From positions 38,675,501 to 38,739,500 of the forward strand of contig OX485805.1 in the NCBI GenBank assembly GCA_950295325.1: DNA of 64,000 nucleotides. Reading direction: 5' to 3'. The notes under the pieces were generated by a model. That model searched no databases, had not been told where the DNA came from, and worked only from the letters and a program-made list of their open reading frames with translations. Source of the DNA: Polytrichum commune (lineage: Eukaryota; Streptophyta; Polytrichopsida; Polytrichales; Polytrichaceae). Positions 11,779 to 61,279 of the stretch are shown here, in pieces (the first letter of the stretch is position 1; each line of letters starts with the position of its first letter). Position numbers and translations under genes: made by a program.

Positions 11779-11868
11779 AACGTCCATCACCCAAGGTGTT
11801 GAAATTTTCCCTCCCAGCTTTGGAACGTCCACTACCCAACGTGTTCAAATTTTCCCTCCTAGTTTTGG
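11779..11868. repeat. 45-bp tandem duplication
   Basis: Two adjacent 45-bp units starting AACGTCCA and ending TTTTGG or CTTTGG, differing at a handful of positions. Confidence 0.85.
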
Positions 11869-12336
11869 ATACCTTGGTTCAGTAATGGTGAAGCCAATTA
11901 GCATGCGAAGTTATCCATCCAAGCTTTTCCAACGAAAATTACCTCTTTTCATCCACTAGCACATACCCTATCCTAAACCCGCTACCCCTAATAATTGTTT
12001 CCATGCTATTTTACATGTACTGACTAGATAAAAGACGCCATTATATGTGATGGTATTTTACATGTAATCCTTTTTCATTATTTTCAAACCCCCTATATTA
12101 TATGTAAGTTTTTTACAAAATTTACCTACAATGAATATATTGGACCCTATTTTTTATTGCACATGGTTCTACGATTTTCGCCCAGTGATCTCCCCGGGTG
12201 TGTGCTTCATTTTCAAGTTGGTCTAAGTCTATATGTGTATTCCGAAAACAAGCATTACAAGAATTTTGAAAAAAAGAAAATTAAAATAAACATCAATGTT
12301 TCCATGAATTCTAAAGCTCCGTGTTTGTCATCAAAC

Positions 12337-13645
12337 CTCGGGGGGGGGCACTCCCTTGTATATTTTGCATACACCTGCGATAATGACCTATTAAAATGGG
12401 GGCTATTTACCTATGAGAAAAGATTATAAGGGATGCTAATTTTTGAAATAATGGTAAAATGTTGTGATTATTTGCACCCTATTGGTAATTATAAATTCTT
12501 GGATGGTTGATTTTATGGTACCCTATATTACTTATATGTATTTTTTCCCCCTGATTGCCCCCATTCCTTAAAGTGTATGATACAGTAGAATTCTCGTTAG
12601 AAGCACATGTACAGAGTAAGAGAAACAAACATTTACTAGGGTTTAGGGTTCAGGGTCACACTGAAGTCCGGGCAAAGCAAAACACTAAACAATAACAACA
12701 AAAGATTGCAATTACATGTCATTAAGCAACACGAGCCAACGAATAAAAGTTGTGTTGGATAACACAGTTAGAAACCTTGAGGTCTTAGGGAACAGGCCAG
12801 CCACATGTGTCTCAAAGTCACATTTACAAGGTTTGCAGAATCCCTACAATTGATGCCTTGATCTTCCAATCCTACACATTGGAGGAAAATCCCACGCCAT
12901 GCAAGCAAAATCCACCTAAACTAGCTAGGCTACCATTTACACATGTGGGAGATATGAGGGTACTCGAACTGAAATGAATACTACAGATTTCAAGGTATAC
13001 TAATGATCATTCAGCCCTTTTTCCAAATTATATCTCCACATGTGTGAGATAGTACAAATTTAGCAGGTTTTATTTTTTTATTTGAAATGAACTCACTCAA
13101 TGAGTTTGCATCTACCTCATCTAAGGTGTAGATTTTGCTAGTTGATTCATACAGTAGAGACATAGTTGAGATAATAGCATCCACATCAACCCACACACAG
13201 TCACTCTCAACATACTTATATTTGTTGAGACCCGGTTGTTTTTTGAACCAATGGAGGTAAGCCATAGCAGTTGGGAAGAGCGTTTCTCTATTTCCATTAT
13301 GGACTGCACGTTTCATCAAGTCAATGGGTTGCCAACAATTGCCCCACTTAGTACCAACCTTCACCCTTATCTTTTGAACCCTTCCTATATAGAACATGCC
13401 ATATTTTGGTGGCAAAGTATTTAATTTTTGAAACTATCGCTTTTTCTCCATGCTATTTTATATGTACCACTTAGGTAATTTAATCATGTTTTGTCAAATG
13501 CTATATTACATATAATCATGTTTCACAATCCCAAAGCACCCTATACTACATCTAATAATTTACAAATTTTACGCCAAATTTTTATACAAGACCCTATATT
13601 TTATCACACGTAGTTCCTACGTTTTTCGCCAGTGCCCCCCCCGAG
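12337..13645 (-). mobile_element. 1.3-kb deletion derivative of the giant element family
   Basis: The ends are CTCG plus a G run plus CACT (nine Gs left, eight right), like the 6.9-kb element at 32870-39749, and the flanking 8-bp duplication CATCAAAC is perfect (12329-12336 and 13646-13653). The interior retains one open frame (13011-13415, minus strand) matching the C-terminus of the 1536-residue transposase, in the same orientation relative to the ends. It is thus a non-autonomous internal-deletion form, from a lineage already well diverged from the full-length copy here. Confidence 0.9.
13011..13415 (-). pseudogene. C-terminal domain of giant-element transposase, isolated
   Basis: Open frame of 134 residues. 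Residues about 7-115 align without gaps to residues about 1428-1536 of the transposase at 34798-39408; by hand about 50 of 109 positions are identical. Shared marks are GRVQKI, WGNC, PID, KYKY and YTLD. Nothing of the zinc-finger or catalytic portions is present, so it cannot cut DNA. The uninterrupted frame despite strong divergence suggests either a young deletion of an old lineage or selection on the domain itself. The first Met is simply the first in frame. The domain's role is unknown; a short chromatin-binding fold (PWWP or BAH style) is a guess from GRVQKI and the aromatic residues. Confidence 0.8.
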
Positions 13646-15835: not shown

Positions 15836-15914
15836 CCTTGAGCAGTGATTAATCAATCTTGGCATTGGGTGGATTTGTGTCAGGAAAGCGCCGGGAATTG
15901 ATTCAGCTACAACC

Positions 15915-16740
15915 ATGACGAAGATGAGAAGAGGGTCAGTAAAAATCTGGGAAAAACCCGCAATCTGTGCCCTTATTCTGATCGGCTTGATTACGGTCCT
16001 CCAGCCAGTGGAATCTGCTCTCCAATGCACCAAAAAATGCGGAAACGTCACCATCCAGTACCCGTTTGGACTCCGGACAAGGTGCGGCCTCCCGGGCTAC
16101 CAGCTGACCTGCAGCAGTAGCGGATTGATCCTCACGACGGCGTCGGGCTCTTACACGGTCACGGAGTTCGATCCCGGCTACCTCATCGTGGACGCCAGCA
16201 CCTCACTGCGGGCCTGGACATACAACGGGCCCGATCCCGTAGAGTTCCGAGTCGCAGAAACCTCCCCGTACGTGGTCGATCAGTCCAACATTTTCTTCGG
16301 CTACGGTGCTAACACGTCTGCCCACTTCCACACCAACAACGACGGCGGCGGGGCCTCTCCCGGGTGCCAGAACGCGGCCGTGAACGAGTACACCACCAAG
16401 TACTGCGACTACTACGCATGTTGCCAGGAGAATGTGCCACCCCGCGTCCGGGCCTTCAACATTAGTGCTACGGAGCCAGACGGATCCGGCGATTATGGAT
16501 ATGCAAGCATCATCTTCCCAGAGACTTATAAGACGTCCGCGGCGAGCTGCTTCGCGTGCGGCACCTGGGGATTTAAGTTGAGCTGGTATGTCAACGGCAC
16601 TTGTGGGAAGGAGGGTAAGATCACGTGCGCCGCCCACTCAAAGTGTTACGAGGATCCGGCCGGCATCGGGACCGGGTTCCGGTGTGGATGTGCGTCAGGA
16701 TACTACGGCGACGGATACAAAAACGGAACCGCCTGCAACA
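15915..16740 (+). CDS. WAK-like galacturonan-binding protein, first exon
   Basis: Encodes 275 residues and then meets a strong donor, GTGAGT, at 16741, so this is a first exon and the gene probably continues. Residues 1-35 are a signal peptide with hydrophobic core AICALILIGLITVL. The mature part opens with CTKKCGNVTIQYPFG, the signature of the wall-associated-kinase galacturonan-binding domain. Paired cysteines (YCDYYACC, SCFACGTWGF) follow as in the WAK-associated C-terminal domain, and then an EGF-like cysteine cluster (CAAHSKCYEDP, FRCGCASGYYGDGY). Family members sit in the plasma membrane, bind pectin fragments in the wall and signal through a cytoplasmic kinase. No transmembrane or kinase exon is found downstream here, so it may be truncated, secreted, or have distant exons. 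The exon is far richer in G+C than its surroundings. Start: first Met, in an acceptable context, with the signal peptide directly following. Confidence 0.85.
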
Positions 16741-16805
16741 GTGAGTAACTAACTACGTACACATTAAATCATGATCTATCTCTGCATAACATTTAGTATT
16801 CAGAT

Positions 16806-26157: not shown

Positions 26158-26567
26158 CACGGGTAGATCACTCCATTGTCAAGTTGAACACCACGTGCGA
26201 CCAAAAAAAATCTTCTTTTGGTAAGTTGCACCACCAAAATGGGTCAAAATTTTATCAAATGTTTTTCATGAGTAGATATACACAGTACCTATGACATAGT
26301 TAAAAGTGGTAACTAAATTTGATGATTTGTTTTTTTCATAAAACATACCGTTTCTAACTAGAATGACACAGAATTGAACTAAAACAATTACTAAAAAAAA
26401 CAAAGATGACTAAAAATTTCAAAAATATATACAAAAGATACTATCAATGGTTATGTATATGTAGAAAAAATATCATAAATTTTAAAGTTATATATGGCAT
26501 GTAATATATGGGTAGCAAACTTTGTCCGCACGTGGTGTCAACTTGACAATGAAGTGACCTCCCCGTG
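26158..26567. mobile_element. 410-bp hAT-type MITE, copy 1
   Basis: Inverted ends of about 40 bp begin CACGGG and contain TCACT-CATTGTCAAGTTG and CACGTGCG. An 8-bp duplication TTTCAAAT flanks it perfectly (26150-26157, 26568-26575). The interior includes CATACCGTTTCTAACTAG and TGGTTATGTATATGTAGAAA, shared with the copies at 50077, 54810 and 40032. Non-coding. It sits at the left edge of a decayed hAT transposase region. Confidence 0.93.
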
Positions 26568-30589: not shown

Positions 30590-31818
30590 AACGTCATGCA
30601 TCATTCCAAGTATACATCACTAAGCTTTATTGTAGGTGGAGCACCATCATCCACATCTATTAAATGTAGATCAACATTAAGATCAAAGTCTTGTGCATAA
30701 TTGATTCTCAAAGCATCATCCACCAACTCATCAATACTCAATTCTAGCTCAGTAATCTCTTCTCTTTCCATTTGAATGTAAGTCTCGATTGACATCTCAT
30801 CATCACCCAATGGAACAAAGATAGAACATTCTTTCATGGACATTTAATAATAAACATGTGATTAGTATGAGATGATTAGCAAATCCAAATCGAAGTTGTA
30901 GTCGTTTGTCAAATATTTTTTGGAGCTCACAATGATATGTTGTTCATTGTCAAAGTAGAAACCCTAAACCGGCGGAGATAGAGTCACGTGTGGAGGGGCC
31001 ATCATGTTTTGAAATAAAATTATTATATTCCCAGTATTGAAAAGTTGAAATTGTCCTTGTAATTGAGAGAACAATTGTGAGATGAAAAAAATTCTCAAAT
31101 TTGATGCATCTCACTTTGGTTTGTCCCATGATGATTCCCCTCTATCATGGGACATACAAACTTCCCATCTATAACATTATAACCCATGGGATTTAAGGGG
31201 TATGTCCCATGTTCTTCCCATGAGACATGGTTGGAAGTTGCTTGTGCCATACTTCATAATTCCACATGATAGCCTTTCTAATGTTGGGCACCACCTTCCT
31301 TAACTCCTTGAATACTGTGATAAAACCCACTACAAAAGTTTTTTCTTGTACTGAATTTTGAAAGATGTTATTATACCTTGATCCAAAGGATGAACTACGC
31401 TTGTAACAATGGGAGGGAGAAATACCAAAGTCGTATACACAAAGATGACTGAGAGAGCACAAAGCAAGAGAGTGCACAAAGATATTGTTGATACTATGTC
31501 ACCCGTGTACAAGGCAACATACTAGGCAAGAGGCCACTCTAACCCTAATTATCATTAAGTTCCCAATGATAAGTGAAGTTCCCAAGTAGTTCCCAGGTGA
31601 AAATGGATGTATTTTAGATGTACATAACATAAATGAATTTTTTTTGAGCATTAATTACCTCTTTAATATGACAAAATGGAGATTCGAAATGTCGTATTAT
31701 CGAGTGTCGTAGTCATATCAAAGAGGGAGTTTTGAACTAAAAATTTTGGTCGTGCAAAAATGTGTCGTAATATCAAGGGTGTCGCATAAACAAGTGTCAT
31801 ACTAACGAGGTTAGACTG
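30590..31818 (-). mobile_element. pogo/Tigger-type transposon, decayed
   Basis: The right end, read inward, is CAGTCTAACCTCGTTAGTAT with TA at 31819-31820, as in the pogo group. On the minus strand 31512-31330 holds the block VFLPPIVTSVVHPLDQGII, the well-known pogo/Tigger/CENP-B stretch before the third catalytic residue. An acidic C-terminal stretch (30843-30601; EEITELELSIDELVDDAL) resembles the Tigger tail. The 5' half with the helix-turn-helix and the first two acidic residues is missing or unrecognisable, and frames are interrupted. The left terminus was not found. Confidence 0.75.
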
Positions 31819-33716
31819 TACTGTTATCCTAGCTGCCAAGTCTGTACACCCATTTAATTATGTTTGATCTACTAATTAAAGAGCCCGGGCATAGTCCCTC
31901 CTTGCATGTTGTATTTAAATAAGGGCCGCTTTACACTGCGGTGGAGAAGTGCACCGGTCGGTCAAGAACTTTCTCCCAAGACATGGTTGTTTGAAGCGTG
32001 GGATGGTATGCCGGAGAAGATGAAAAGACAATAAAATAATGCCTTAAGAAGTTTTGACCACCCGTAGTGTAACCACCTACAGGAGAAGTGTATTGGACAA
32101 CTTCACCAAGAGGAGAAGTCCACCGGACTACTTCACAAAACGGTCAAAGCCGGCCATAATAGAAACCTTACCCCCTAAATGACCATTGTATTGATTTTTT
32201 TTTTAATTTGATAAAAAAAAAAATGTATATGGGAATGGTCTAGAAATTCTTTCATGACAATAATTTAATTGAAAATATTCCACCTCTTTACTACATCCAA
32301 ATTAAGGTAAATAAGTAGGTAACATTATCTTTTTATTGATTTTTAAAGAAATTACATGTTGGTATAGTCCAACCTCGTTAATACGACACTCGTTTATACG
32401 ACACCCTCAATATTATGACACATTTTTACGAGACCAAACTTTTTAGTTCAAAACTCCCTCTTTTATACGACTACAACACTCGATAATGCAACATATAGAA
32501 TCTCCGTTGTGTCATATTAAAGAGGTAGTTAATGCTAGAATTCCTTTCATCTATATAATGTACATCTAAAATACATCCATCTTCACTTGGGAACTACTTG
32601 GGAACTTCACTTATTGTTGGGAACTTAATGGTAAGTAGGGTTACTAGTGTAGAATGGACATGGTTAGGGTGAGAGTGGCCTCCTGCCTAGTATGTTGCCT
32701 TGTACACGGGTGATATAGTATCACCAGTATCTTGATGCTAAATATCATGCATCATTGTTGTCTAGTTTCTTATTAGAGAACTCTTTATATTTTGGTGTTA
32801 ATGAAATTATTAGTTTCCAAAAGTTAGATGGAAATTTAGATAAGATGATGGTTGCTAACTTGGGTGGCACTCGGGGGGGGGGGGGGGCACTAACCTTAAT
32901 GTAAACACACTAGGTGCGTCCGAAGGGTATTTTTTGGGGGGGTATTACATTTCCTCTTTTCAATTGCAGGGACCCTATTGTTTCCTAATTTGTTAACATC
33001 AATCATTATTTTGGGGGCTATTGTTTGTTTAAAAAAAAGATTAGCTCAAAATTGCATAGGCTATGTTATGTTAAATTTTGAATTCTGGCCATAAATGATT
33101 TAGCTCTTGTAGCATTAACACACATTCATACATCAAACCAAACACATATCACAAATGTTGCATATGCAATATGCGAGATCGTGAAACTGCATGTATTCTA
33201 TAATTCTGAAAATTGAACAAGCCTACATGTGAACATCAACATCCGAATGCATTGATACCACAAGGGATCTCGTGTTGCATGTTTCAGAATGCACCTCAAA
33301 ATGTTCCAAGCTAAGAACTCATGCAGACATGTTGTTTCACTCCCTGAGAGTTTGGGGCATCTGAGCATTTATACATAAAGGTTCATTCAAAGGGATAAGA
33401 TGCAATTGACTGCATGTTATGTTGGTTAGAGTTTAGGCTTCAAGGTTGTGTATAATGCAGTTGTTCACACCCTAAGCCCTCATATGGCGTATACCCTAAG
33501 TCCTCACCTGGATAAACCCCAAGTCTTCATATGGACTCACAAAAATTTCAAGACCCTGCCATTCACACATAGAACTCCAGCAAGTTGTTGAAGTGCACAA
33601 ACTCATTTGCATTAAGGGTTAAAGGGTGTGTCTAAAACACGATTTCTAATTGCCTACCTAAACCCCAGTCTGACATATCCTATCTACACTGGCATTCTGA
33701 ATTGCTCACACAAACA

Positions 33717-34306
33717 TCACACACGCCCGTCGGAAGTGTTAACTGGGGACCTCCACAGCTTGGTTCCGTTCTCGGCCCCAAACGCTGGAACGGCCTCCTC
33801 TTCAATAACCCGACCACGCTCCAGAATGTCGCGTAAATACCACAACTCTGCATCAGTCAAAGCTCTGACATACGAATTTAGAATATTGTCTGGAGCTGCC
33901 CTAGCCACAACATGGTTCACACTTAGTGTGTCCCAGTTCCTTCTGTAGCCCAGGACCACCTCATCCTGTGTGGAAATCCACTTGGGCGGAAGAATGAGCT
34001 CCGCCTCTACAATTGCAAGTCTCAGAGCGTGATACTCCAGATAACTGTCAACCTGAGCCCCAACAGGATGCATCCAGTTCAAATAACAACTTCAAACCAA
34101 ACAAATCTGCCAGGGGTATTGAAGGTATTGAGGGGTTTAGGGCGAGGTTTTACCTCTGACCGCCAAGCTGTGCACACAGCTCGTGCTGTTGTGATGGATG
34201 CGAGCAGCTCCGCATGTGGGCCGATAATTGCGCCCCACTCACCGTGTTCCTCTCTCACTTTGCGGAACAGGGACTCCACATATGCATCGCGCCCCACAAT
34301 CTCCAT
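33717..34306 (-). CDS. accessory protein of giant transposon, unknown function
   Basis: Two exons, 34306-34154 and 34052-33717, around a 101-bp GT-AG phase-0 intron, give 162 residues. The start follows a good context (AACATGG), though an exon further upstream is possible because CAG precedes it. The protein is rich in helices by eye, with charged and aromatic residues (ESLFRKVREEHGEWG, ELWYLRDILERGRVIEEE) and no signal peptide, membrane segment or cysteine motif. I recognise no family. It lies downstream of the transposase on the same strand, inside the same ends, so it probably belongs to the element: perhaps a DNA-binding, regulatory or anti-silencing partner, as second proteins of other plant transposons are. 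That role is inference. Confidence 0.65.
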
Positions 34307-34797
34307 GTTGCCTGCCTGGTTTAGGGTTTACACGCGAATCAATCAGTGCAGGTTAAACACCAAAACAGAAGGCAACCAACCTAACTGGGCGTTGGGGTTT
34401 AGGGTTTACCTGTCTGTGATGGTTTAGGTTGCAGGTAGTGCCGCTCACCACATGTGTCTTTGAGGGTTGTGGTTGCAGGTTAGCCGCTCGGCACAGGGGA
34501 CACAAAAGACAACAGGTAACGCCTCAACACTCAATCCTCATCAACTAACAACTAACATCAATTTCAGTAGCAAAAGAAGCAACAAGGTGGGATTTAGGGG
34601 CTTCTGGACTAACTTGTCTGAACGTGGGAATGTGACGCAGGTAATTCACAACAGGTAAGTCCTTTCCCCCGTCGAAATACCTAACTGTTTCTAACCCTAA
34701 GTCTACACTAACATTCTAGATCCTCATCCATGTAATCCCTAACCAACAGGGACAAGTTAGGATCAAAATACTTTAAAATAAGGCTGTGATCTTAAGG

Positions 34798-37700
34798 TCA
34801 TTTGTCAGTGCGCACAAATTCGTCTAGACTTTTAGCATCCGTGTCGTCTAGAGTATACACATTCGTCCTCATATTGAATGACATGCTCACTGTGGATATA
34901 ACAGAATCTATATCTATCCATTGGGTGTCCGAACCTTCATACTTGTATTTCAAATGACCGGGAGATTTTGTAAACCAATTTAACAGAACCATAATTGAGG
35001 GGGTAGAACTTACCTTCTTACCTTTGACGCACATCCTGTTCATCATGTCGATGGGATTTCGGCAATTCCCCCATTGTTTTCCACATTGTCTCTTGATTTT
35101 CTGAACACGGCCCAACCACCATGTTCCAACATCGACCCCCAAAGAAACTGGGGTGGGTCTCCCTCTCCTACCACTCGAACGGACCCCCCTCCTTTGGGCA
35201 GCTTTCACTGCAGAAGATGTGGTTGTTGTGTTCCTTTGAACAAAGAACACACCACAATCGCTACCGATCCCCAACAACATGGTGGATTCGCACGATGCAG
35301 TTGATAAATAATCCTCGAAATTATTGAAGTACACCGAGTTCCTAACACGGGTCAAGCGATCTTTGGACAGGTAAGGATTCCCGTTGAGTTCAGATACAAG
35401 TGTTGACTTGTATATGGTTTTCCCCCCATACTCAACTGTTGGGACAATAGTTTGAGCATGTGTTGCACCGGAATTTGTCAAGGAGGGCGCAGGAGGCTCC
35501 ACGGCACCCATAAGCTCAGAGAGTGCATCCATGCACTCACCCTCTGCGATTCCAAGCGGTTCGGGGTCATCCTCAAGCTCATCCTCCAGGTGGACGACAT
35601 TGTCGTTGGCATCCGTGTCAACCATAGCGTCCCTGAGAGCTTCACCATCTCCATCATCACTTGTAGTTGCCTTCTTTGGAGGGACATATGCCCAATATTT
35701 GGGGTCATTGGATTCTACAAGCCACGGTTGCATAAACCATTTCTTCTCTCGCGCCACACTTGAAGGGCCCATGTTAAGAATCCTGATCATGGATTGGGCT
35801 TCCCGCAGTCCCTCTTTCAATGAATCAATCAACTTAGAGTCATCGTTGATCAAAGAATAGTCACCCAAATCAGGACCTGACATTCCTTCCTCCAATGGGT
35901 GCAACTCTGCCCATATGTTTCTCTGTTTGTTATGCACTCTATCAAATTTCAGTCCATTGTCGCCATATTCGATGGCTGATAATTGATTTAGAGTGTTAGC
36001 ACAGTTTACTAATTCATGAAAATCGTACGCTCTTTCTATTCCTTGCATTCCTCCCACTTTACTAAAGAAGATCTCACAGGCATCGCTACCGGTCAAGTGA
36101 AGTGGAACAGGTAGATTATCATGGTGCTCCCTAAAATATTTAATAAGAAAAACCACAAAATGACACGAAATTTGCACATCTAAAAAACATTGATTGCTAA
36201 CAAAACACTCTTGAGTTGTCAGACTTTTTGTGTTTCCCCCAACAGCATGGTCTCCGTGCTGAAACCACAATCTCCAAATGCGGAAAAAGAAGCTTACCTT
36301 AGACGCAAGGACGATCCGTTGTCGAAGGTCCAGCGACACCGATAAAAATATGTCAACGTAGTCAGCACAAATCTGCAAGTACATCTCAGTACCAAGTGTC
36401 CTCTCCTGATGGGTATCGCGTCCAACTCTGATGTCCTTTAGACATGTCCTTACCTTCAATGCACAAAGACGTTGTGCACTCGCCCAATTCTGCCGGTCAC
36501 TCCTGTTGACATCCTCTTGGCGCAGACCGTGCTGATCAAATGTATATTTGTTGTAAACCTGTCCAACATGGCCCAAACAACAAATATCCAACCCTAATTG
36601 CAAAGTTTTGACTACACTATCTAAGGGATTAATCAACTTCTTCCCGTTATGTATGAAATCTTGATCATGTAAACCTTGGACTCTATTTCCTACTCCTAAC
36701 ACAGCGGACAAGACAAAACCCTCCCAAGGGACCTCAAATCTGTGTCCAGACTTACCAGTGTAATCTTCTAGCATTAGTTGTCGTCTGCGTGAGTCGCCAT
36801 CAGAAGCATGGCCAACAACCGGGCCGACAGATTCCTCACAATGCAACTTCCACAAGCTGTCGATTCGTCCCCAATGACTGCAGACCCAACAACTATCGAA
36901 ACAATTGCAAGTGCAAGACACAGCTAGGACCAACCGCGGCAATTTTGCATGCAAAGGGTTCACCATTATTACCTTTGCAAAGCTGCCAATCTTATCGCCA
37001 CGGAAAGCATCAAGGATGTTCTCATAACCTGTATTACCCTCACCTACATAGGGTTTGAAGTCTACAACACATTTGTGGTTGATTTTTGACCCACAAAAAC
37101 ATGCCAACACGTCAAATTGGGGTTCCCATGTTATCCTGGCCTTGACTTTTGTCTCGTCTTCGGCAAGGATAACAGGCACTGGACCTGTCACCCCGTGTGC
37201 ATTCTTGGCCTCACGGTAGATTCTTGCTACAGACTGGAAAATCAACGGGTGTTCTCCTGCTACAAAGCGAACACCCTTGATGTTCTCACGTTTCACTGTA
37301 CTGTAAGAAGGAGCTGCGAAATTCAAAGAAAACAAGTCACACATTCGTCGTCCCCCATAAACCTTCATTGCCTGGCAAAATGATTTCGAATTATTGGAAA
37401 ACCGGTGGCCCTGTTTTTGGCGGTTTAGATTGTTGGCGACATCGCGGAGGAAGTCCCACAGGGTTGGTTTCCCTCCGAAGGCGTTTGTTCTGTGAGCAGC
37501 CAAGATATTATTACATACAGACAATACATCCTTCCTATTAAAATTTTCTTGAGCACTAAGACGCAATCCATGCTTTGCCATTTTGAGTTGTACTACCCTA
37601 GCCTTCATGGACCACCGCATAGCTCTCTCTTCACGAAATTTTCTACCTAAAATACGGTTGTGCAATGCAAGTTCATGAACAGACAAGCAATCGATTCGAC

Positions 37701-39408
37701 GGCCAGGTACTGGAGTCCTAGTACCCCGTTTATCTATGGACCTGTCCTCCCTAAAAACCCTCTTCCTGAAGTCATCCTCCTTTGGAATCCTTCTACATTC
37801 AGCACAAGTGTAATTCTCAAAGGGCTCACCAGATAAGGAGACACGCGCGCATCTCACATGTCTAAAGCAACCAACAATGACAACAATTCCATTACGATCC
37901 CTAAGCTCAGTTCGTGTGGAAGGTTCAGGAGCCCAATTATTACCGTGCTTAGGATCAGCAAGCAACCCATGGACATTGTAGACCAGATTAGAGTACATGG
38001 CAGTTCTACCCCAATAACCCCAGCATAACAACGAGAATACTTCGTTTTGCTTACCTGATGAAGCATGTGACTCATTCGTCCTGTCCGTAATCCTGAACCA
38101 ATCGTGCAGGCTCTGCTGTGTGCCTTGACGACCCCTGGAAGCAGGAGGCGGCCTCCCTCGACGTCCTGTGGACAACGCGGAAGATGTCGACTTGGCTGCA
38201 GCCTCCTCCAGCGCCTTGGTGTGCTTGATACCATGGATATGGTTCTCCAAGTTGGTGCGCAGGTTCTTCTTCGATGGGCACAACACAAACATGTCGCCAC
38301 AAACAGTGCAACGCACTTTGTACCAGAAACTCTTCATGATTTCGGACTCTGTGTCACCCACTACAACGAAGGTAACAGCAATAGCACTAACGCCATCATT
38401 CACAGACTGCAGAATTCCAAACCCTTCTTGAACTGCTGCCTTATGATCTGATGCAATTAATACTATGGCTCTACCACTCTTGTCCTGCGGATGATTATCG
38501 TAACTAACACCTTTCCCTCTGCACCAAGCTTTGGCATGGATTGTGGAGACAATGTGGGAAACTTTGAAGTTATTAATTAGATTATGGATAGCAGCCTTCG
38601 AATGGTCTCCAGACTGTCCACCAAACTCCTTCTTGCATTCCCCACAGTGAAGCTTCACTACAGACACTTCCCCATCATCCCAGGAGCGCAAATGCCACAA
38701 GTTGTCTTGCAAATTAAGATCTGCTAACTCCTTCCTCAATTTAGAGGCATCCCTAACATATTTGTCTTGAACCTCCTTTGATAGCAACACTGACTTGAAA
38801 TCGTGCCCAGAAAATTGGTCAACATAATCTAAGATTGTAGTAACCTTAGATGAGGGGTCAACCTCACCTGAATCAATGGGATGAAAATCAGGTGAATGGT
38901 TAACCTCCTCTGTTGCAGCAACCTCTTCTGGAACATCGCCGCCCACGTGTAGACGCATGCGCTTTGCTCGGTCATGTTCGTCTCCATGCCGAGCTTGGAT
39001 CACGTACACCGAATCACCAACAGTGTCCACACCCTCCATCCTTGTCTTGATTCGGCATTGCTCTTCGAAGTCCCAAAAGTCGAAACCCCACTCCACACAC
39101 TTCGCTTCTTCAAGGCGCACTCTGAATGAAGAGTAAAGCTCATGTGGTTGGCATGCAACTCTACCAATCATCTCGATTGTGTTTACCTCATCCTCTAGCG
39201 CAAACAACCTGACCTTGTAGACTACCATAGCCACAAACAAACTAAAGCACCCAACACGTCCAACATGACGCAACAAACAGTTCAACACGAGGCACATGGA
39301 ACTGTCTGCAACATCGAAATTGCGAAACCCTAAGAAACTGACAGTAAACCCATAGAAAGTGTGCAAAGTTAGCTCATGATGTGCTACCACAACGTTAGGG
39401 TTACGCAA
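34798..39408 (-). CDS. giant DDE-type transposase (1536 aa)
   Basis: Single uninterrupted frame. Two zinc-finger-like blocks come first: CGECKKEF with later His residues (about 255-290), and VRCTVCGDMF with HIHGIKH (about 366-396). Next are an AT-hook (GRRGRPPP, about 416) and a PCNA-box-like QQSLHDWF (about 431). A Cys pair block (CRR near 538) precedes the core. Candidate catalytic residues are Asp in AEDETKVKAR (about 751), Asp in HASDGDSRRR (about 870) and Glu in SDACEIFFSKVGG (about 1112), spaced like the P/hAT group with a large insertion domain. A CxC/CxxC cluster (about 832-843) lies between the first two. An acidic linker (about 1250-1300), a second AT-hook (GRRGRPTP, about 1413) and a 109-residue C-terminal domain (GRVQKI, WGNC) follow. 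It should bind the CTCGGG-type ends and cut and join DNA in the nucleus. The first 59 residues look odd; translation may start at Met60 or later. Confidence 0.85.
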   Translation of the reverse strand: MRNPNVVVAHHELTLHTFYGFTVSFLGFRNFDVADSSMCLVLNCLLRHVGRVGCFSLFVAMVVYKVRLFALEDEVNTIEMIGRVACQPHELYSSFRVRLEEAKCVEWGFDFWDFEEQCRIKTRMEGVDTVGDSVYVIQARHGDEHDRAKRMRLHVGGDVPEEVAATEEVNHSPDFHPIDSGEVDPSSKVTTILDYVDQFSGHDFKSVLLSKEVQDKYVRDASKLRKELADLNLQDNLWHLRSWDDGEVSVVKLHCGECKKEFGGQSGDHSKAAIHNLINNFKVSHIVSTIHAKAWCRGKGVSYDNHPQDKSGRAIVLIASDHKAAVQEGFGILQSVNDGVSAIAVTFVVVGDTESEIMKSFWYKVRCTVCGDMFVLCPSKKNLRTNLENHIHGIKHTKALEEAAAKSTSSALSTGRRGRPPPASRGRQGTQQSLHDWFRITDRTNESHASSGKQNEVFSLLCWGYWGRTAMYSNLVYNVHGLLADPKHGNNWAPEPSTRTELRDRNGIVVIVGCFRHVRCARVSLSGEPFENYTCAECRRIPKEDDFRKRVFREDRSIDKRGTRTPVPGRRIDCLSVHELALHNRILGRKFREERAMRWSMKARVVQLKMAKHGLRLSAQENFNRKDVLSVCNNILAAHRTNAFGGKPTLWDFLRDVANNLNRQKQGHRFSNNSKSFCQAMKVYGGRRMCDLFSLNFAAPSYSTVKRENIKGVRFVAGEHPLIFQSVARIYREAKNAHGVTGPVPVILAEDETKVKARITWEPQFDVLACFCGSKINHKCVVDFKPYVGEGNTGYENILDAFRGDKIGSFAKVIMVNPLHAKLPRLVLAVSCTCNCFDSCWVCSHWGRIDSLWKLHCEESVGPVVGHASDGDSRRRQLMLEDYTGKSGHRFEVPWEGFVLSAVLGVGNRVQGLHDQDFIHNGKKLINPLDSVVKTLQLGLDICCLGHVGQVYNKYTFDQHGLRQEDVNRSDRQNWASAQRLCALKVRTCLKDIRVGRDTHQERTLGTEMYLQICADYVDIFLSVSLDLRQRIVLASKVSFFFRIWRLWFQHGDHAVGGNTKSLTTQECFVSNQCFLDVQISCHFVVFLIKYFREHHDNLPVPLHLTGSDACEIFFSKVGGMQGIERAYDFHELVNCANTLNQLSAIEYGDNGLKFDRVHNKQRNIWAELHPLEEGMSGPDLGDYSLINDDSKLIDSLKEGLREAQSMIRILNMGPSSVAREKKWFMQPWLVESNDPKYWAYVPPKKATTSDDGDGEALRDAMVDTDANDNVVHLEDELEDDPEPLGIAEGECMDALSELMGAVEPPAPSLTNSGATHAQTIVPTVEYGGKTIYKSTLVSELNGNPYLSKDRLTRVRNSVYFNNFEDYLSTASCESTMLLGIGSDCGVFFVQRNTTTTSSAVKAAQRRGVRSSGRRGRPTPVSLGVDVGTWWLGRVQKIKRQCGKQWGNCRNPIDMMNRMCVKGKKVSSTPSIMVLLNWFTKSPGHLKYKYEGSDTQWIDIDSVISTVSMSFNMRTNVYTLDDTDAKSLDEFVRTDK

Positions 39409-40031
39409 CCTATCACCATCCGCGTGCCTCTAATCTGCACCACCCACGACGTTTGATCGTAGGGTCCACAATTGATCTCAGGCAATGCCCTCACTGTCTA
39501 ATACACGTGTGGGCGCCATAGGTTGCTAGGCCTTTTTTTATTTTAAAGGTACCCTACTTTATTTTTAAAATATCTAGTAATACACGCACTATACCCACAC
39601 CCTTAGTTTGTTGTAACCCATGTAACATCATTATTGTGACCCTATTCTTAAGGAAATATTTTTCAAATAATTTGCTCCATTGTTTTTATGAAACCCTATC
39701 TTTGGACTCACCTATATTTCTAATACCAAGGTTAGTGCCCCCCCCCGAGGGGTGGCAACACCAAAGATCTTTGGACTCTTATTTTTGGAGTTCATAATAT
39801 AAATGTAATAGTTTGGAGTTATAAGTTATTATTTCATACCATCTATATTGCTTAAACTTGTTGTATGTATTTTTAAGCTCATATTACTTATGTTTTCGTA
39901 TTCCCTCAATAGTATGACAACTTTATGTCATTTGTCATAGTAATGAAAAGATGATACCTCGATAATACGACTTTTTTGTATTTCCCAAAAATGTCATACT
40001 AAAGAGGGAGAACAATAGTGCAAAGATTTAT

Positions 40032-40899
40032 CTCGGGGCGATCACACCCCCTTACGTTTCATAACCACGTGTGATAAAAGTTTGCTACCCTATATTATAT
40101 GCCACATATAATTTTGAAAATTATGATATTTTTTCTACATATGCATAACCATTGATTATATATTTTTTATATATTTTTTGAAATTTGTGAGCATCTTAAT
40201 TTTTGTAGTAATTTTTTTAGTTCAATTTTGCATCATTCTAGTTAGAAACGGTATGTTTTATAAAATTTATAAAAAAATCATAAAATTTGGTTGTTATTTT
40301 TTACTATGTAATAGATACCGTGTATACTCATGAAAAACAATTGATAAAATTTTGACCCATTTAACACAATATTCATTAAAATGAGAGTTCTCCAGTGAAT
40401 TGAGAGTACATAAAGCAAACTATTAATCCAAGAATGAAATGAAAACCACTGGAAAGTTGTAGAGTACAAGTAAAAAAATAACATTTGATTTTCCACCGTA
40501 AATTCCGCCGTAGTTTCCATTAAAATGAAATTATGTTAAGCTGGGAAATTGACTCATTTAGGTCGACTCAACCTAAATTGACAACATAATCAACTCATTT
40601 AGGTCGACTCAATTTAAGTTGACAAAATATTGTCCTCATTTAGGTCGACTCAACCTAAATGAGTCGATTTCCCAGCTTAACATACTCTCATTTTAATGGA
40701 AACTACATGTCTGAAGTATAATCTAGTATTTATCAACCTAACATGACTTTTAGGTGTCCAAATGGCCAATATTATTTTGAGAGGATCCCACTCTCTCAAA
40801 ATATTGAATATCGTGTTATTTTGGTGATGTTTTATGGAGAAAGTAGATTTTATTTATCGCATGTGGTGTTCAACTTGACAATGAAGTGCACCCCTCGAG
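40032..40899 (-). mobile_element. hAT-type MITE, copy 4, with insertion
   Basis: Inverted copy of the 410-bp family: the left end is CTCGGGGCGATCAC with CCACGTGTGATAAAAG, and the right side has CGCATGTGG-TTCAACTTGACAATG and ends CCCCTCGAG. Flanks AGATTTAT and AGATTTCT match at 7 of 8 bases. Family sequence breaks near 40363 and resumes near 40835; the gap holds a palindromic element (40510-40706) and other DNA. Confidence 0.85.
40510..40706. mobile_element. 197-bp palindromic element
   Basis: Inverted ends GTAGTTTCCATTAAAATGA and TTAAGCTGGGAAAT enclose three direct units containing CTCATTTAGGTCGACTCAA (starting about 40552, 40593, 40635). TA may be the duplicated target if the ends begin GTTTCC. 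A similar CATTAAAATGAGAG piece stands alone at about 40371. Confidence 0.7.
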
Positions 40900-46348: not shown

Positions 46349-46722
46349 GAGCTTGCGGGTCTAGATTTCAGCTTTCGGGTTTGAAATTCTGAGCTTCTTG
46401 GTTTGGGATTCTGAGCTTCCGGGTTTGGGATTTTGAGCACTCGGGTTTAGGATTCTGAGCTTGCAGGTCTTGATTTTGAGCTTGCACGTTTGGGAATGTG
46501 ACCTTTTGGGTTTAGGATTCTGAGGTCACAGGTTTGGAATTTTGTGATTGCAGGTTTGGAGTTTTGAGTTTGCACGTCTGAGATTTTGAGCATCCTGGTT
46601 TTGGGATTCTAAGCTTTCGGATTCAGGATTCTGAGCTTGAAGGTTTGAAATTTTGAGCAGGGATTCTGAGCTTGCGGGTTTGGGATTTTGTGGTTGCAGG
46701 TGTGGGAATTGAGGTTGCAGCC
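46349..46722 (+). repeat. 22-bp minisatellite ending at chitinase start
   Basis: About 17-18 diverged units of consensus GAGCTTGCGGGTTTGGGATT plus two bases (usually CT or TT), running without a gap up to the chitinase start codon; the last unit reads GAGGTTGCAGCC before ATGATGG. Several units contain GCAGGT. The array probably makes up the 5' untranslated leader or core promoter. Confidence 0.9.
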
Positions 46723-48448
46723 ATGATGGCGACCAAGTCGGTGATGTTGGTGGTTTTGATATGTGGGGGTATGTTGTTGGAGGCAGCCGATGCGCAAGGG
46801 ACTTGTAGCGCCAACGCGCCATGCCCAGACTCCAACAATTGTTGCAGCAAATGGGGTTACTGCGGCACCGGCGACCCTTATTGCGGTGAAGGTTGTATAT
46901 CGGGGCCGTGTACAGCAGGAGGAGGAGGAGAAGGAGGAGGAGGGGGTGTTACCCCTCCGAGCGGTAGCGGTCTCGGTGCCACGCTAACCAAGAGCTTGTA
47001 CGAGAAATTGTTCCCCGGCCACCTCGCATTTTATGCTTACGACAAGCTCATCGAAGCTGCCAAGGTGTTCCCGCAGTTCGGCACGACAGGTGACGAGAAC
47101 ACCAGGAAGAAGGAGATCGCTGCATTTGCTGCGCACATTTGGCAAGAGACTTCAGGTCAGCACCACCAATTAGCCTAAGCCTCAATGACTGAGTGTCGGA
47201 GATACTTACAGGTGGACCGATCGAGTCGCTCCTTCCGATGATGCCTTTTGGCATGGTTGAGAGCAGCTTCAATTTACTTGTTGTGTAGTAAATTAACAGG
47301 GGAATACCTGATCGTCAAGTGGAAAGCACATTGCAACGACATCGAGTTCGGAAGATTGCAGGGACTGTGACGATCAACGTCCATTGCATCCAATCTCTTG
47401 AATTGCATTGCCTTGCCTTGCTGGCCCGTTGGTTTGTGGTCGATCCCACCGCTTTCGATGTCATTGTTAATATGCGTCATCACTCTGTTCTACTTACGGC
47501 ATCAACATTGCTGAGCAATAATTTCTCTGCTGCTGATGACTTCAGGGCTGAAGAAAGTCAGAGAGGATAATCAAGGAGACTACTGCGACAGCAGCAGACC
47601 AGAGTTTCCATGCAATGGACACAAATTCTACGGCCGCGGGCCCCTGCAACTATCCTGGTACTTACTTACTCTTCGAAGATTCAATCATCATCATCATCAG
47701 TTACGAACTTAGGATCGCTTGATTGTAAGGTTTGGACGAAGTGTCTCGAATTTGAATACGTGTCCTGTAATTTATGTGTACTTTTTGAGCCACCCATATT
47801 GTTCTTACCTTACTCGAACAACCGACGCTCATCCGAAAGCTAAAGCGTCACCAGAACTCGTCACAAAGTTTCACTCTTGTAGGCACTCTATCATCCATAT
47901 TGCCTAGATTTCGTCCATAAATTGATCGGTTACAACTGATACCCAGCTCGAGTAGGTGGACGACGAGTGAGCCGCGCTCCTCTCGTTGGGGTTACCTAGT
48001 CCATACATACTTGTTGCTAAAGATGAAAGCTAATGTCTGCATCAATGATCATCACAGGAACTACAACTACGGGACTTGCGGGAAGGCCCTCGGACTGAAC
48101 CTCCTCGGCAACCCGGACTTGGTGGCCACGGATGCTCTGGTCTCCTTCAAGGCGAGTCTGTGGTTCTGGAACGACTACGGAGACAGCAAGATCCCCAACA
48201 TTCACAGCGTCATAACAGGCAAGTGGAGCCCTACCAATGATGACAAAAATGCCAACCGCTACCCAGGCTTCGGGCTCACCATCGACATCATCAACGGAGG
48301 CTTGGAGTGCAACAAAGACAGCGAAGCCGCCAACAACCGCGTGAATTACTACAAAAAGTTTTGTAGCGAAATGGGAGTGAGCCCTGGCTCCAACGTTGAC
48401 TGCAAGAAGATGAAACCCTTCTACGGCGTCAACGTCGCCACATTTTGA
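46723..48448 (+). CDS. chitin-binding class GH19 chitinase
   Basis: Three exons, 46723-47155, 47546-47657 and 48058-48448, give 311 residues; both introns are GT-AG, with phases 1 and 2. A signal peptide (VMLVVLICGGMLLEAADAQ) directs secretion. Residues about 26-63 form a hevein-type chitin-binding domain with eight Cys (NNCCSKWGYCGTG, YCGEGC). A Gly-rich hinge follows (GGGGEGGGGG), then the GH19 catalytic domain: IWQETS with the general-acid Glu, VREDNQGDYC with the probable second Glu, the substrate-cleft block FYGRGPLQLSWNYNYG split by intron 2, and a Cys pair near the C-terminus. It hydrolyses beta-1,4-GlcNAc links in fungal walls, outside the cell or in the vacuole. The segment between the two Glu blocks is shorter than in class I enzymes. 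The second Met (46726) is an equally good start. Exons are much richer in G+C than the surroundings. Confidence 0.95.
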
Positions 48449-50076: not shown

Positions 50077-52997
50077 CACGGGGGGTCACTCCATTGTCAA
50101 GTTGAACACCACGTGCGATCAAAAAAAACTTCTTATGGTAAGTTGCACCACCAAAATGGGTCAAAATTTTATCAATTTTTTTTCATGAGTAGATATACAC
50201 AGTACCTATGACATAGTGTGAGCTAGAATCACCCCCACCCTTAGTTGCGTCCTAGCCCGGGTGAGGGATCATCCACCACATTCTAATATGCAAATAACAA
50301 TTGCACCCAATGAAAGAGGATTGGAAGAAGTGGTGTGTATAACACCTTTCTTTCTTTATTAACTCATGCGAGCATTCACAAATGCTTGGGTCTCATACAA
50401 TGCCAATCCAAGGCGAACCCTTCTAATTCCCTCTACACCCAACACCAACAATTCCACCTTTCCCTCCCGGATGCACTTCACCTGCCACGGCCCATACAGT
50501 CTACCTACCCCTTTTCTTCAAGCAAATACCAACAATTCTTTGTTAGGCCAGTGTAAAGTCTAGTTTAACTAGGATCCTAATGCAGTAATATTGAGAGGCA
50601 CGTGTTCTACTGCTGCCTGCTTGTCTAAGCACCTACTCGCTCAACCGTCGATCCACCGAATGCCTCCCATGTGCACCTCCTCCTTCGAGCTTTCCGCTGA
50701 GCTGGGACATCCAGCGGCAAGGACCTCACCGTTGCCTCCAGTATAGGCAGATGTCTGCAATTGGCCCTTGAATCGATTTGCTCAACTTGGGATCCTACTC
50801 TGTTCCATGGTTCGTCCACCTGCCGGGACCCATCCTCCCCACTCCGAACCACACTGGATTCCAAAGTCTCTCACACCCTGATCCTTGGTACGTTGCCTGC
50901 TCATTCCTGTTTGCTCGTGCATCTGCACAATGACCGCCGCCACCTTCCTAGCACGACCTTTGATCGTCTACTCGTCCCCCCCCCCCCCCCCCGTCTTCTC
51001 TTCGAACTGCTCAGATCACTTAACCTCGCCATTCCCAGTGTTGATCCCTGCCGGTAGTTGCACGATCACGGGACCCTGCCCACATTTCTCAACGCTCCGG
51101 ATGGACCAATTCTCGCACACCAATGCGTGCCTCCTCAATTCCAGAATTTTGTGACCAAGCTCCACCGCCCAATCCCTCTCTCCTCCAGACTGGGGCAACT
51201 TCCCCCCCCCCCCCCCCCGTCTTAATTCCTGCAACCTTCCCTACCCGGTCATCCAAGGTTTTTGAGCAGCAATGAGCGCTCCAGATCGAGAGCCGACGTG
51301 GCCTGAAAGGTGCGCCGTTCAAAGGAAAAAACCAAAGGAAAACGGGGCAGGGGGAGCGCTTACAACCCACAGCAGACGGTGGTGAAACAGAAAATAACCG
51401 TTCGTCATCTCTCCTGCGTCCAGGACACTTGATTCATCTGGGCAGCATCTTACCTCCCTTCTTGAGCCCCGGCGAAGAGATTCGACCTATCGCCGACCTT
51501 CTTCGACCCGACCTACCGATCGGCCGTCTGTCAAACTCATCCGATGTCACTATTGCAGCGACTCCTCCCCTTCCTGTTCCGTTCCACGCTGGTCTCCCCG
51601 AAATGTTGCTAGACAAGCTCCCGATTTCCGAAGTTGGCCGTCAGTAGCCGCCCTTCTACGTTTTCCAAACTCCGATGTCGCCCTTACGGATCGGCTCTAT
51701 CACCGATCCTCACGGAGCTTCTTCTCCGGCCTTCCTTCACCCTCCTGGAGTGCACTACATACTTCTATCTCTCATCATCTGTGGCCCTCCCCTTGTCACC
51801 CTATGGATTTTGTTTGTTTTCATGAACCCCACACTATCCTCTCCGAGGCTCCTCGTAGAGGCAGGGCTTCGCCCTCTTGACCTTCTCCTACTCCCTCTAC
51901 CTCTAACATGCATCAATACTCAACCGGACAGGGCTTCGCCCTCTCTCCCCTCCCCTTCCTCTCTAAGCATGCATAATGAGCTCTCTACCTCCTACCTCCC
52001 GAGACCCCTCCAACCTCTACCTTTTTTCCCGGGTTGCCCGGCATCTTTCGGGCCGCCCGAGAGAAAAAACGGGTTAAGACCTTTTCCCTTGGCCTCTCCC
52101 CCTTCCAAACCCACTTTCCTTATTCTTCACTTGACTTCTTCTCCCCCTAGACTCATAGATAAATAGAACAAATAGATAGATAGATAAGATAAAAGTAACC
52201 CACCATAGTTGTTAGCAAGTAATCACGCTCGTGTTATGGTATAAGTTGAGGGTTGTTGTGGTTGTGGTCACCAAGTCATGTTTCCTCGGTTGGTTGAGGA
52301 AGGATGTTAGTATTACACTTAGCCGGTCCGAGTTCGATTCCCGTGGAGTTCGTCCGACCGCTTAGTGCCTTACACATGACTTGGCTAGTGATTTCTAGGC
52401 AGGAAATTAGTATCCAACCAACCGGCTCTTACCCATCCTCCTGAGCTATCCGTGTAAATATCATTCAATAAATAACGGTCATCGTCATGACCCCCCCTTT
52501 TATTCTATTGGTTTTCCTTGGTCCTTCTAAGCATGCTTTTACTAGACTCCCCATGAAACGCTTATGCCTTATTCCCCTTTAGTCCCCTAAGGTTAATTTC
52601 TCTCCAAGTTCCTAATCCCACCGAGATATTTAACACCTTACCTTTCCCATCACCTGCTAGTTCTATCAAGCATGAAATCGACGTGTTAGCCATGTTTTTT
52701 GCGATTAAGGATTAATGTGAGTACGATTTCGGGCTCACACATAGTTAAAAGTGGAAACTAAATTTGATGATTTGTTTTTTTCATAAAACATACCGTTTCT
52801 AACTAGAATGACACAGAATTGAACTAAAACAATTACTAAAAAAAATATGACTACAAATATACAAAAGATACTATCAATGGTTATGTATATGTAGAAAAAA
52901 TATTTTAAATTTTAAAATTATATATGGCATGTAATATAGGGGTAGCAAACTTTGTCCGCACGTGGTGTCAACTTGACAATGAAGTGACCTCCCTGTG
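50077..52997. mobile_element. hAT-type MITE, copy 2, split by an LTR
   Basis: The left half (50077-50216) and right half (52740-52997) together match the MITE at 26158-26567 almost base for base. The outer 8-bp duplication GTTGGGAA is perfect (50069-50076 and 52998-53005). The ends begin CACGGGGGGTCACTCC and CACAGGGAGGTCACTTC. The middle is occupied by the insertion at 50217-52739. Confidence 0.93.
50217..52739. mobile_element. probable solo LTR (2.5 kb) fossil
   Basis: The insertion begins TGTGAGC and ends GCTCACA, and a 5-bp duplication CATAG lies on both sides (50212-50216 and 52740-52744). TG...CA ends with a 5-bp duplication mark an LTR retrotransposon. No polymerase or capsid-like coding sequence is found, so a solo LTR or a coding-free LTR element is likely, perhaps Ty3/gypsy-type given the length. 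The plus strand is rich in C runs (50977-50992, 51200-51217) and CTC phrases. Being inside a MITE, it is younger than that MITE. Confidence 0.65.
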
Positions 52998-54809: not shown

Positions 54810-55220
54810 CCCGGGGGGTGCACTCTATTGTCAAGTTGAACACCACATGCGAACAAAAAAATCTACTTTTTCTAAGTTGCATCAACAAAATGGGTTAAAA
54901 TTTTATCAAAAAAAATTTAAGAGTACATATACATGGTATCTATTACATAGTAAAAATTGATAACCAAATTTGATAAAAAAAAATTTCTAGAAAACATACC
55001 GTTTCTAACTAGAATGATGCAGAATTGAACTAAAAAATTTACTAGAAAACATGGAGATGACTAAAAATTTCAAAAAATATATACAAAAGATATTATCAAT
55101 GGATATGTATATATAGAAAAAATATCATAATTTTTAAAATTATCTATGACATATAATATAGGGGTAGCAAACTTTGTTCGCATGTGGTTTTCAACTTGAC
55201 AATGGAGTGACCTCCCCATG
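54810..55220. mobile_element. hAT-type MITE, copy 3
   Basis: 411 bp, complete, ends CCCGGGGGGTGCACT and (inverted) CATGGGGAGGTCACT. The 8-bp duplication GAACCCTA is perfect (54802-54809 and 55221-55228). The interior is collinear with copies 1 and 2 but more diverged. Confidence 0.93.
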
Positions 55221-57045: not shown

Positions 57046-60000
57046 CTCCCACTTTGCGAGTAGTCAAAGGCTTCTAAACCCATTGCTTTTGTTAATGTTT
57101 GATGCCTATCCTTTGCAAGTGGTTTAGTTAGCACATCCACTATCATATCCTCCGTAGGACAATACTTCAAACATATCTCTTGGTTTTTTAGTTTCTCTCT
57201 AATGAAGTGATGTTGTACATCGATATGTTTGGTGCGAGAATGGTGTGTGGGATTTTTTGCAAGTGCTATGCATCCTTGATTGTCACACATAATGGATGTT
57301 GGTCCTTCTTACAGATATCCCACATCCGACAAAAGTTGCCTAAGCCAAACCACTTCCTTAATACAATGGCTAGTAGCCATGTACTCCGCCTTCGTCGTAG
57401 ACAATGCAATATTTGGTTGTTTCTTGCATTTCCAGGAAATGACTCCAACGCCAACAAAAACTACATACCCCGTGGTGGATCGCCGGTCATTTTGTATCTC
57501 CCCCCCCCCCCCCCAATCTGCATTGCAAAAACATCTCAAGACAATATCCTTGCCTCCAAGCCATAATTTGAAGTCCAAAGTGCCCTTTAAATACCTCATG
57601 ATGCGTTTTACGGCCATCCAATGCGGTAGACTTGTCGCAACCCTTGCTAGAGCCCTTAACAATCTTGGTCATTTTTCAATTCTAGCAAGGATCACGAGTG
57701 CTAACCCTTCGCATTCCGCCATGCGAATGGTAAGCTCCCCATACGGCAGACCTTTTAGCCCATAGGAAGGGGACCAACTCTCCTACACTTGCATTCGGGA
57801 CTCACCCCTTAATTGATAACCAATGGTATTTTGGACACTCCTCATGAAGAGGTGTGCGACAAGACCAGCCTTCGACATAAATTGGCTCACCGTACTTACC
57901 GCAAATGCAATATCAACCCTCGTGGCCACCATTGCATACATGAGAGATCCTACTCCGGCCTTGTATGGAATACGTTCCATTTTCCTTTGAACATTCACAA
58001 ATTCCTCATCCGGAAGTTTTAACAATTTAAAGTTCACATTGAACGGAGTTCCGACCAGTTTATATTCTTTCATATTAAAACGCTTGAGGATCTCTTCAAT
58101 ATAGCTTCTTTGGTGCATAGTAATGGTACGGGCTTCTCTATTCCATTCAAATTCCACTCCTAGGTCATAATGCAATTCTTAAAGATTGTTCATCTCAATT
58201 TTTTTCCTGAGTTCCGATTTGAGCCACTTCAATGGGGTTACATTGCTTGCTAATATGATCAAATCATTCACGTAGAGAATTGCCACTAAAAAATACTCAC
58301 CCGTTTGTTTTACGTACAACAATTGATCTGCTCGGCTCCTACAAAAACCCTCCTTAATGAAGAATGAATCGATACAGTGGTACCACGCCCTCGGCGATTG
58401 CTTGAGCCCGTATAAAACCTTCTTGGATTTGCACACAAGATCTTCTTTCTTTTTTTGTACGAAACCCTCCAGTTGGTCCATACATATCTCCACCTCCAAT
58501 ATTTCATTCAAAAATGTCATTTTTACATTCATTTGGTGAATCACCCAATTTATAGCCACTCTTAATGCAAGAATGCATCTAATGGTGATAATTTGGCCAC
58601 GGGAACAAAGGTCTCATTAAAATTCACTCCGACTACTTAAAAATATTCTTTTGCTACTAATCATGTCTTAAACCTAAAAAATTCACCCAATGCATCCTTC
58701 TTAGTGTGGAATACTCATTTGCATCCTACACTCTTGCGATCTTTTGGAAGCTTGGTCAATTCCCACGTATCATTGGTCATGAGCGAGTCACACTCCTCTT
58801 GCATTGCGGCCTTTCACTTGTTCGTATCTTTGGATCTCAACGCTTCATACAAATTCAAAAGATCGTCCAACAATGCCACATTGGCCCATTCTTCGCCGTG
58901 TTGGGGTAGAATGTGGTTCTTCTATCATTCTACTAGCCGACGCCGCAGCCTCGTAGGATATCTTCCATCCTTGCCGAATCTCTCAACGTGGCCATTATTC
59001 TCCGCGGGAATTTCGATTGCCTCATCAATTGTAACCAAGTGATCTACTTCCTCCTTGCGCTCCTCATCATCATCACATGAAGATGATTTGGAAGATTTGT
59101 CTACAACAAATGTCATAAGGCCTTCATTTCTCCCACTTGGACACATCTTTAAAGCGTTTCCAATGTTCGTGTCATCTTCCACGAATGCCACGTCTCTAAC
59201 TTTTATGATTTTTTTAGTTTACAAACACATTAGCCTATAGGCCTTCATCACCTCACAATAACCCAAAAACATTCTTTTTTTGTGCCCTTTGCATCAAGCT
59301 TATCTCTTTGTCCATTTGGCGTAAATGACGCACCCAAACACACCCATGTGTGCAATGCAAGGCCTCCTTCCGCTTCACGTTTCTTCGGGTGCAATGGAAT
59401 CCAACGCCCTTGTTGGACAACGATATCCTATGTAAACCGCATTAACCACCGCTTCTATCCAAAATGATTTGTTGAAGTTTTCAGCATGAAACATACTCCT
59501 TATCATTTTCACGATGGTACGATTTGCACGCTCCGCCAATCCATTTTGTTGTGGCGTATGTGAGATAGATGTTTGCTTCTTGATACCATGATCCTTCAAA
59601 AAATGATTGAATGCCTTAGAAACAAAGTCCCCGCCATTGTCCGACCGAAATGTTTTAATTTTATACTTCGATTGTGTCTCTACAAGTGCCTTCAGCTCCT
59701 TGAACTTCTCAAAGCAATCCTCTTTGGATTTCAACACATACAACCACATCTTCTTTAAAAAATCATCAATGAAAATTATAAAATACCTTGCACCACCCAT
59801 GGATGTAATGCTACTAAGGCCACAAACAAAGGAATGCGTGATTTCCAAAGGTTTGGTCGCTCACCCTCGTCCCTCATTCGGAAACGCAGCCCTATGTTGT
59901 TTGCCTTCAATGCATGCTTCACAAAGCAACGAGGATGTGGCCTAAAAATAATTGCCAAGGTTCATAACACTAACCATGTTTCAGAGTGTATGAATATTCT

Positions 60001-61279
60001 TCACATTCAAATGACAAAAGCGGTGATGCCAAAGCTTGAGCGCGCCATCTTCCGTTAGAAATTGCCCCAAGTTGGTTGTTTCCGCTTCGTGCATCTTTAC
60101 AAAATTAATTTCGTAGAAATTGCGTTTGCGTGGCGCAATCACAATGACTTCACCATCGTAAGATTTAATAATGCATACGTTTAGGTTGATTTGAACCTTC
60201 AAACCATTCTCCAAAAGTTTGTTCAACGCGAGCAAATTGCCATGCAATTTGGTTATGTAAAGCACATCTTTGACATGAATTTGGTTGATTTTGTCTTTCA
60301 AAATTGCTTTTACTATAATAGATCTCATTTTGATAGCTTGGACAATGTTATTATCACCTAAATGCACATTGCATGGAGTGATTACCTCATACGTGTGAAA
60401 TGGGCCTTATTCGAAGACATGTGTTTGGAGGCTCCCAAATTCATCATCCACTTGTATACCCTCTTAAAATATATTTTAATGCTCATTACAAATGCATAGT
60501 CGTCATCGTCTTTCGCATTCTTCATTTGTTTTCGTTCTTTGTTCTTTGTTTTGTAGTAAAAACGCGGAATGTGGCCCGGTTTGTTACAATAAAAACACGA
60601 TTTAGCAAGATAGCGTGGAAATGACTTGCCGCCTTTATTTTGTCGCACCATCATAACGGCATCGATACCTTGGGCTCTTCTTTTTGCGCTTTAACATCTT
60701 GTGCATCAAACGCGCCATCATGCAGTCCATTGTAAGTTTCTTTATTAGCATTGTCTCCATGACGGTGATCAAATATTCCAACGACATTGGCAAGCTCTTT
60801 GACAAGGTCATAACAATGTTTTTGTCTCTCATGGGTTCCTCTAAACAAGCAAGTTGATCCTTCACTTTTGTTGACGTGGTCCAATAAGTCGTTATCCTCT
60901 TGCATCTTGCACATGTAAAACTTACGGCGAATAAAAATAATGTTAGACAAAATTTTCGTCTCATGAATATTGTAATGGGTTTTCCACACCTCCGCGGATC
61001 GTTTGCAACTCTTGATGTGCGCAAGTTGGTTGTCCGCCAAATTAAGGCCAATAATGGAGATGACATTCTTGACGTGTCTTTGGTATTCCTTCAACACTTT
61101 AGGATTCGCATTGGAAGATGAAGGTTCCTCGAATCCGTCTATAATATCCCAAAGATCCATGGATGCCAACAAAATTTCTATTTTTAACCTCCAAATATCA
61201 AACTTTCTTCCATTGAATTTGTCAATGTTTCTAGCAGCCTCATTTTTAAATGATGTTATCGTATGCTCGGATATATGTT

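Follow-up and report, generated by a model that had tools for sequence, protein, structure and literature searches.

The stretch of DNA analysed here, called the window (64,000 bases), carries a 6880-bp element, A, which has the appearance of an autonomous DNA transposon and which is probably a cut-and-paste transposon of the C/DxxH clan, distant from the named members of that clan and accompanied by the non-autonomous passengers B–G. The borders and target duplications of the elements, an end plan common to all of them and a stretch of protein that A has in common with B are observed, whereas the place in the clan is taken from motifs recognised by eye.

Element A and its sister elements

Element A (32870–39749, minus strand) is bordered by an exact 8-bp target duplication, GGGTGGCA, with its left copy at 32862–32869 and its right copy at 39750–39757, and this strongly supports the intact-looking DNA transposon with 8-bp duplications which an earlier note on this DNA had described. 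Its termini are inverted and of the form CTCG(G)nCACTAACCTT, the left end (32870–32918, plus strand) reading CTC-G15-CACTAACCTT and the right end (39707–39749, minus strand, as reverse complement) CTC-G9-CACTAACCTT, in agreement with the inverted CTCG-G(n) ends given earlier. A is single-copy within the 64-kb window and, going only by its intact frames and its exact duplication, may have been active recently.

Besides the apparently complete A the window holds two larger relatives, B and C, and four MITE-type copies, D–G. Element B (12337–13645, minus strand; 1309 bp) lies between exact copies of CATCAAAC and keeps a C-terminal coding block at 13074–13400 (minus strand), while C (9466–12198; 2733 bp) has the exact duplication TGTGTGCT and the ends CCCGGGGAGATCACT; over about 200 bp at either end B and C are 74% and 70.5% identical. 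The 410-bp MITE D (26158–26567) is flanked by exact copies of TTTCAAAT and the 411-bp MITE E (54810–55220), about 85% identical to D, by exact copies of GAACCCTA. The MITE F (50077–52997) is split by a 2523-bp insert and has an exact outer duplication, GTTGGGAA, and G (40032–40899; 868 bp) is flanked by AGATTTAT and AGATTTCT, which agree at 7 of 8 bases. Across the seven sites the 8-bp duplication is therefore exact at six elements (A–F), and A–G together occupy 15,532 of the 64,000 bases, the insert in F included. This insert (50217–52739) starts with TGTGAGC, ends with GCTCACA and is flanked by CATAG at either side, and in this it resembles an LTR-type insertion that has made a 5-bp duplication.

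In an unguided scan we looked for inverted arms, 150–15000 bp apart, that had the same 8-mer on their outer sides, the 8-mer being made up of three or more different letters. Arms of 12 bases gave only two pairs in the window, A and C, and perfect arms of 10 bases gave A, B and C. Shuffles were run with arms of 6 bases. At that length 11 pairs were found in the window and 3–13 in each of 15 shuffles, and as this count is within the shuffle range only arms of at least 10 bases were used. A scan with the end pattern, in which one mismatch was allowed in the duplication, returned five pairs, A–E, all with exact duplications, where 40 shuffles gave 0.025 pairs on average, the pattern having been written after A–D had been seen. 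F and G came to light because they resemble D and E, and their duplications were checked afterwards.

A common plan of the ends

All 14 ends follow the same plan: a CNCGGGG-like terminus is followed by CAC near +12, and a short box that contains TG lies 22–25 bp beyond the CAC. The CAC stands at position 11–13, and at 19 in the left end of A because of the long G run there. Both ends of A have the box at 25 bp from the CAC (GGTGCG on the left, GGTGAG on the right), though their G runs differ by six. Elsewhere the box is most often CGTGCG or CATGCG, with CCTGCG at the left end of B and CGTGTG or CATGTG at three other ends. As the box pattern was written after the alignment had been seen and is present in 17% of random 30-mers, a held-out profile is the fairer test. 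A profile made from the four ends of B and C recovered seven of the ten held-out ends at E-values between 8e-5 and 0.51, including the two of A (E 0.016 and 0.51); the three that it failed to recover belong to D, F and G, one to each, and at E ≤10 it matched nothing else in the 64 kb. The profile of the D–G ends matched the left ends of B and C and neither end of A, the profile of all ends without A matched one of the two A ends (the right one, E 0.042), and the profile of A alone matched no other element. Because some end profiles miss A, its link to B–G rests also on the protein described below.

The end profile did not match an inverted pair just left of A (31540–31821 and 32362–32643, 86% identical). 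Runs of G or C at 28651, 50976, 51202 and 57500 were also considered as ends and were rejected, being absent from the end-pattern lists and from the end-profile matches.

Coding capacity of element A

The frame of ORF1 (34798–39429, minus strand) starts near the right end of A and runs for 1543 codons from stop to stop; the long unbroken frame reported earlier thus stands, the 1536 codons given for it being close to this figure and not exact. With residues counted from 39429, the first ATG (M45) leaves a putative transposase of 1499 codons (34798–39297, minus strand) and the second (M68) one of 1476 codons. No convincing match of this protein to a named superfamily or to anything else was found in Pfam, PDB, NCBIfam and PHROGs, the best matches being a PHROG of unknown function (E 0.0043) and one piece in Pfam (E 0.038, far below the cut-off), and for this reason the transposase call is made from the position of ORF1 inside the ends and from motifs recognised by eye. 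These are ILAED (D758), ASDGDSRRR (D877), HDQDFIHNGKKLINPL (D924xxH927) and GSDACEIFF (E1119), so that the DxxH lies between D877 and E1119; on this by-eye assignment of the putative catalytic residues D758 and D877 are 119 and D877 and E1119 are 242 residues apart. ORF1 also has two AT-hook-like RGRP cores (at 424 and 1422) and four CxxC pairs (at 262, 374, 542 and 847).

The Pfam scan recognised six of nine other frames of the window, belonging to Copia, chitinase (two pieces) and wall-associated kinase. The Copia-type retrotransposon (58179–61325, minus strand) has broken frames with Pfam matches to gag, integrase core and reverse transcriptase, the chitinase gene pieces (46657–48448, plus strand) are chitin-binding and GH19, and the wall-associated kinase domain lies at 15849–16748; the chitinase and kinase matches together indicate that the host is a plant. 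ORF1 matched neither the P-type RNase-H model PF21787 (TNP-like_RNaseH_N) nor the hAT dimerisation model PF05699 nor the KDZ model PF18758, each of which also matched 0 of 14 control genomes, so that their power on distant relatives is without a positive control. As far as Pfam goes, this supports the earlier view that the A protein lacks the hallmarks of hAT and KDZ.

Structure prediction was tried with AlphaFold2. For the core (residues 679–1224, single sequence) the mean pLDDT was 33 and the model unusable, and the core was therefore left out of the fold search. For the C-terminal domain, modelled from two sequences, the best model reached a mean pLDDT of 61.5 and the other four 36–39. A Foldseek search of this domain model against the PDB gave 42 matches at E ≤10, the best at E 1.1, its sequence profile gave 21 chance matches in the PDB (E 0.076 at best, for the most part antibody light chains), and in Pfam there was a single weak match (E 0.06). 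Relatives of ORF1 or of the family were also sought in viral contigs and none was found: two pattern scans matched 3 and 13 stretches, none of them confirmed by tblastn. One DNA-pattern match in a viral contig (L001), whose open frames were inspected, was rejected as chance, as tblastn with ORF1 reached E 0.14 at best, over the very 13 residues on which the pattern had been based. A pattern scan of GTDB genome contigs gave five matches, again with none confirmed.

The link between A and its relatives at the protein level is found in element B. Residues 1435–1543 of ORF1 (34801–35127, minus strand) have a counterpart in B that is 46% identical across 109 aa (E 1.6e-27). The two blocks differ at 44, 38 and 75 of 109 sites at codon positions 1, 2 and 3, which is the pattern of protein-level selection, and an identity of only 46% implies that the genome has had one or more further coding lineages. 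As B encodes this relative of the ORF1 C-terminus between ends of the same plan, the element ends are tied to the coding region. B itself appears to derive from a relative of A by internal deletion.

Downstream of ORF1 and on the same strand we predict a second gene, ORF2 (33717–34306, minus strand; 162 aa), with exons at 34306–34154 and 34052–33717 giving 51 and 111 codons over a putative 101-nt GT-AG intron. The second spliced gene which had been claimed inside the ends of A is thus plausible, short of proof. When codon use was scored after training on ORF1, exon 1 came out above all 58 control open frames and three of the 58 exceeded exon 2, the score being a weak one, as training on the first half of ORF1 gave 0.054 for its second half and -0.09 for the coding block of B. 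No homologue of ORF2 was found, and a role of its product as an accessory or regulatory protein would be a guess. A suspected remnant of ORF2 in element C was rejected: tblastn gave only E 0.37, the best segment scored 37 against 35 for the suspected one, and a score of 37 was attained in 53 of 300 shuffles.

Relationship to known superfamilies and proposed mechanism

8-bp duplications and non-autonomous relatives are typical of plant hAT elements, and A has both as well as short inverted ends. That A is an aberrant hAT element is nevertheless highly improbable, since Pfam finds no hAT dimerisation domain in ORF1, the motif is DxxH rather than CxxH and hAT ends begin differently. Large proteins are usual in the KDZ/Novosib group and Novosib elements make 8-bp duplications, features that would also fit A. 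For the KDZ elements (Zisupton, Dileera, Kyakuja) the part of PMC12730594 available to us gives 8-bp duplications for Zisupton and for a Dileera element, and in excerpts from two papers, PMC9587614 being one, the poorly documented Novosib group is named only in superfamily lists. Against a place of A among KDZ stands the missing match to the Pfam KDZ model, and we regard a place in KDZ or Novosib as improbable, if somewhat less so than one in hAT. Dada, as described in the sections of PMC3706591 at hand, resembles A in a DxxH after the second D and in a large protein with zinc-finger motifs (Dada-U6_DR, 1402 aa). It differs in that it targets small RNA genes, in a distance of 176 from the second D to the E, in the 6-bp duplication given for Dada-U1 and in the lack of terminal inverted repeats in Dada-U6 and -U1.

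A DxxH between the second D and the E is found, according to the available parts of PMC9587614 and PMC3706591, in P, hAT, MuDR, Kolobok and Dada, and judged by eye the distance between these two residues in ORF1 appears to be nearest to that of P within the C/DxxH clan. In the portions of the two papers at hand, Drosophila P has D303 and E531, hence 228 from the second D to the E and 73 between the first two D (PMC7776569), and zebrafish THAP9 has D434 and E679 with 245 and 87 (PMC10983969); the 242 of A is close to both, whereas its 119 between the first two D is longer than in either. Like P, A has an 8-bp duplication, the order D, D, DxxH, E (in A assigned by eye), internally deleted derivatives and, near each end, a subterminal box that parallels the binding sites described in the accessible text of PMC7776569. 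A could on these grounds be a true member of the P superfamily, from a plant branch without the THAP domain, and yet we consider this rather unlikely: the CNCGGGG...CAC ends of A differ from the CATACCTGTCAAC of Pdre2, as given in the excerpt from PMC10983969, its protein is much longer, and the P RNase-H model in Pfam does not match it, although distant members can escape a sequence profile.

Compatible with any of these placements, there is an even chance that Repbase, Dfam or the repeat library of a plant genome paper already lists the family under some name, in which case only the present description would be new. The presence of seven elements within 64 kb suggests a high copy number, which would be visible to repeat finders, and motifs like SDGD and QDxxH...K occur in unnamed animal and plant proteins. 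On the other side, among the matches listed, no title or start of an abstract describes such an element, the literature having been covered in part and not by sequence. Tentatively, and with clearly less than even confidence, we consider an undescribed eukaryotic cut-and-paste superfamily that is represented in at least one plant genome by several copies within 64 kb. It would be defined by CNCGGGG...CAC ends, a box at a near-fixed spacing of 25 bp and 8-bp duplications and, further, by a DDE protein of about 1500 residues with its own C-terminal domain and by a second small gene. This possibility was judged against Pfam, PDB, NCBIfam and PHROGs, and for P, hAT, Dada and KDZ by profiles or descriptions.

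On the view that A is a plant DNA transposon which moves autonomously by cut and paste and is distant from the named members of the C/DxxH clan, we propose the following mechanism. ORF1 would most likely encode a DDE transposase with an RNase-H fold that belongs to this clan and stands too far from P to count as a P element. Its protein may bind each end, perhaps via the cysteine/histidine and AT-hook-like segments, at two recognition sites, the terminal G-rich CAC block and the subterminal box, held at a near-fixed distance of 22–25 bp. It would then pair both ends and excise the element by DDE chemistry, and joining to target strands 8 bp apart followed by repair would leave the 8-bp duplications. 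B–G could be passengers moved in trans by the protein of A or by sister proteins.

With an apparently complete copy and six relatives in one window, the ends that a two-component excision test needs are available. To our knowledge P-like elements are little documented in plants, and if the family proves to be undescribed, the group of transposases to which P and hAT belong would gain a deep branch, present in plants.
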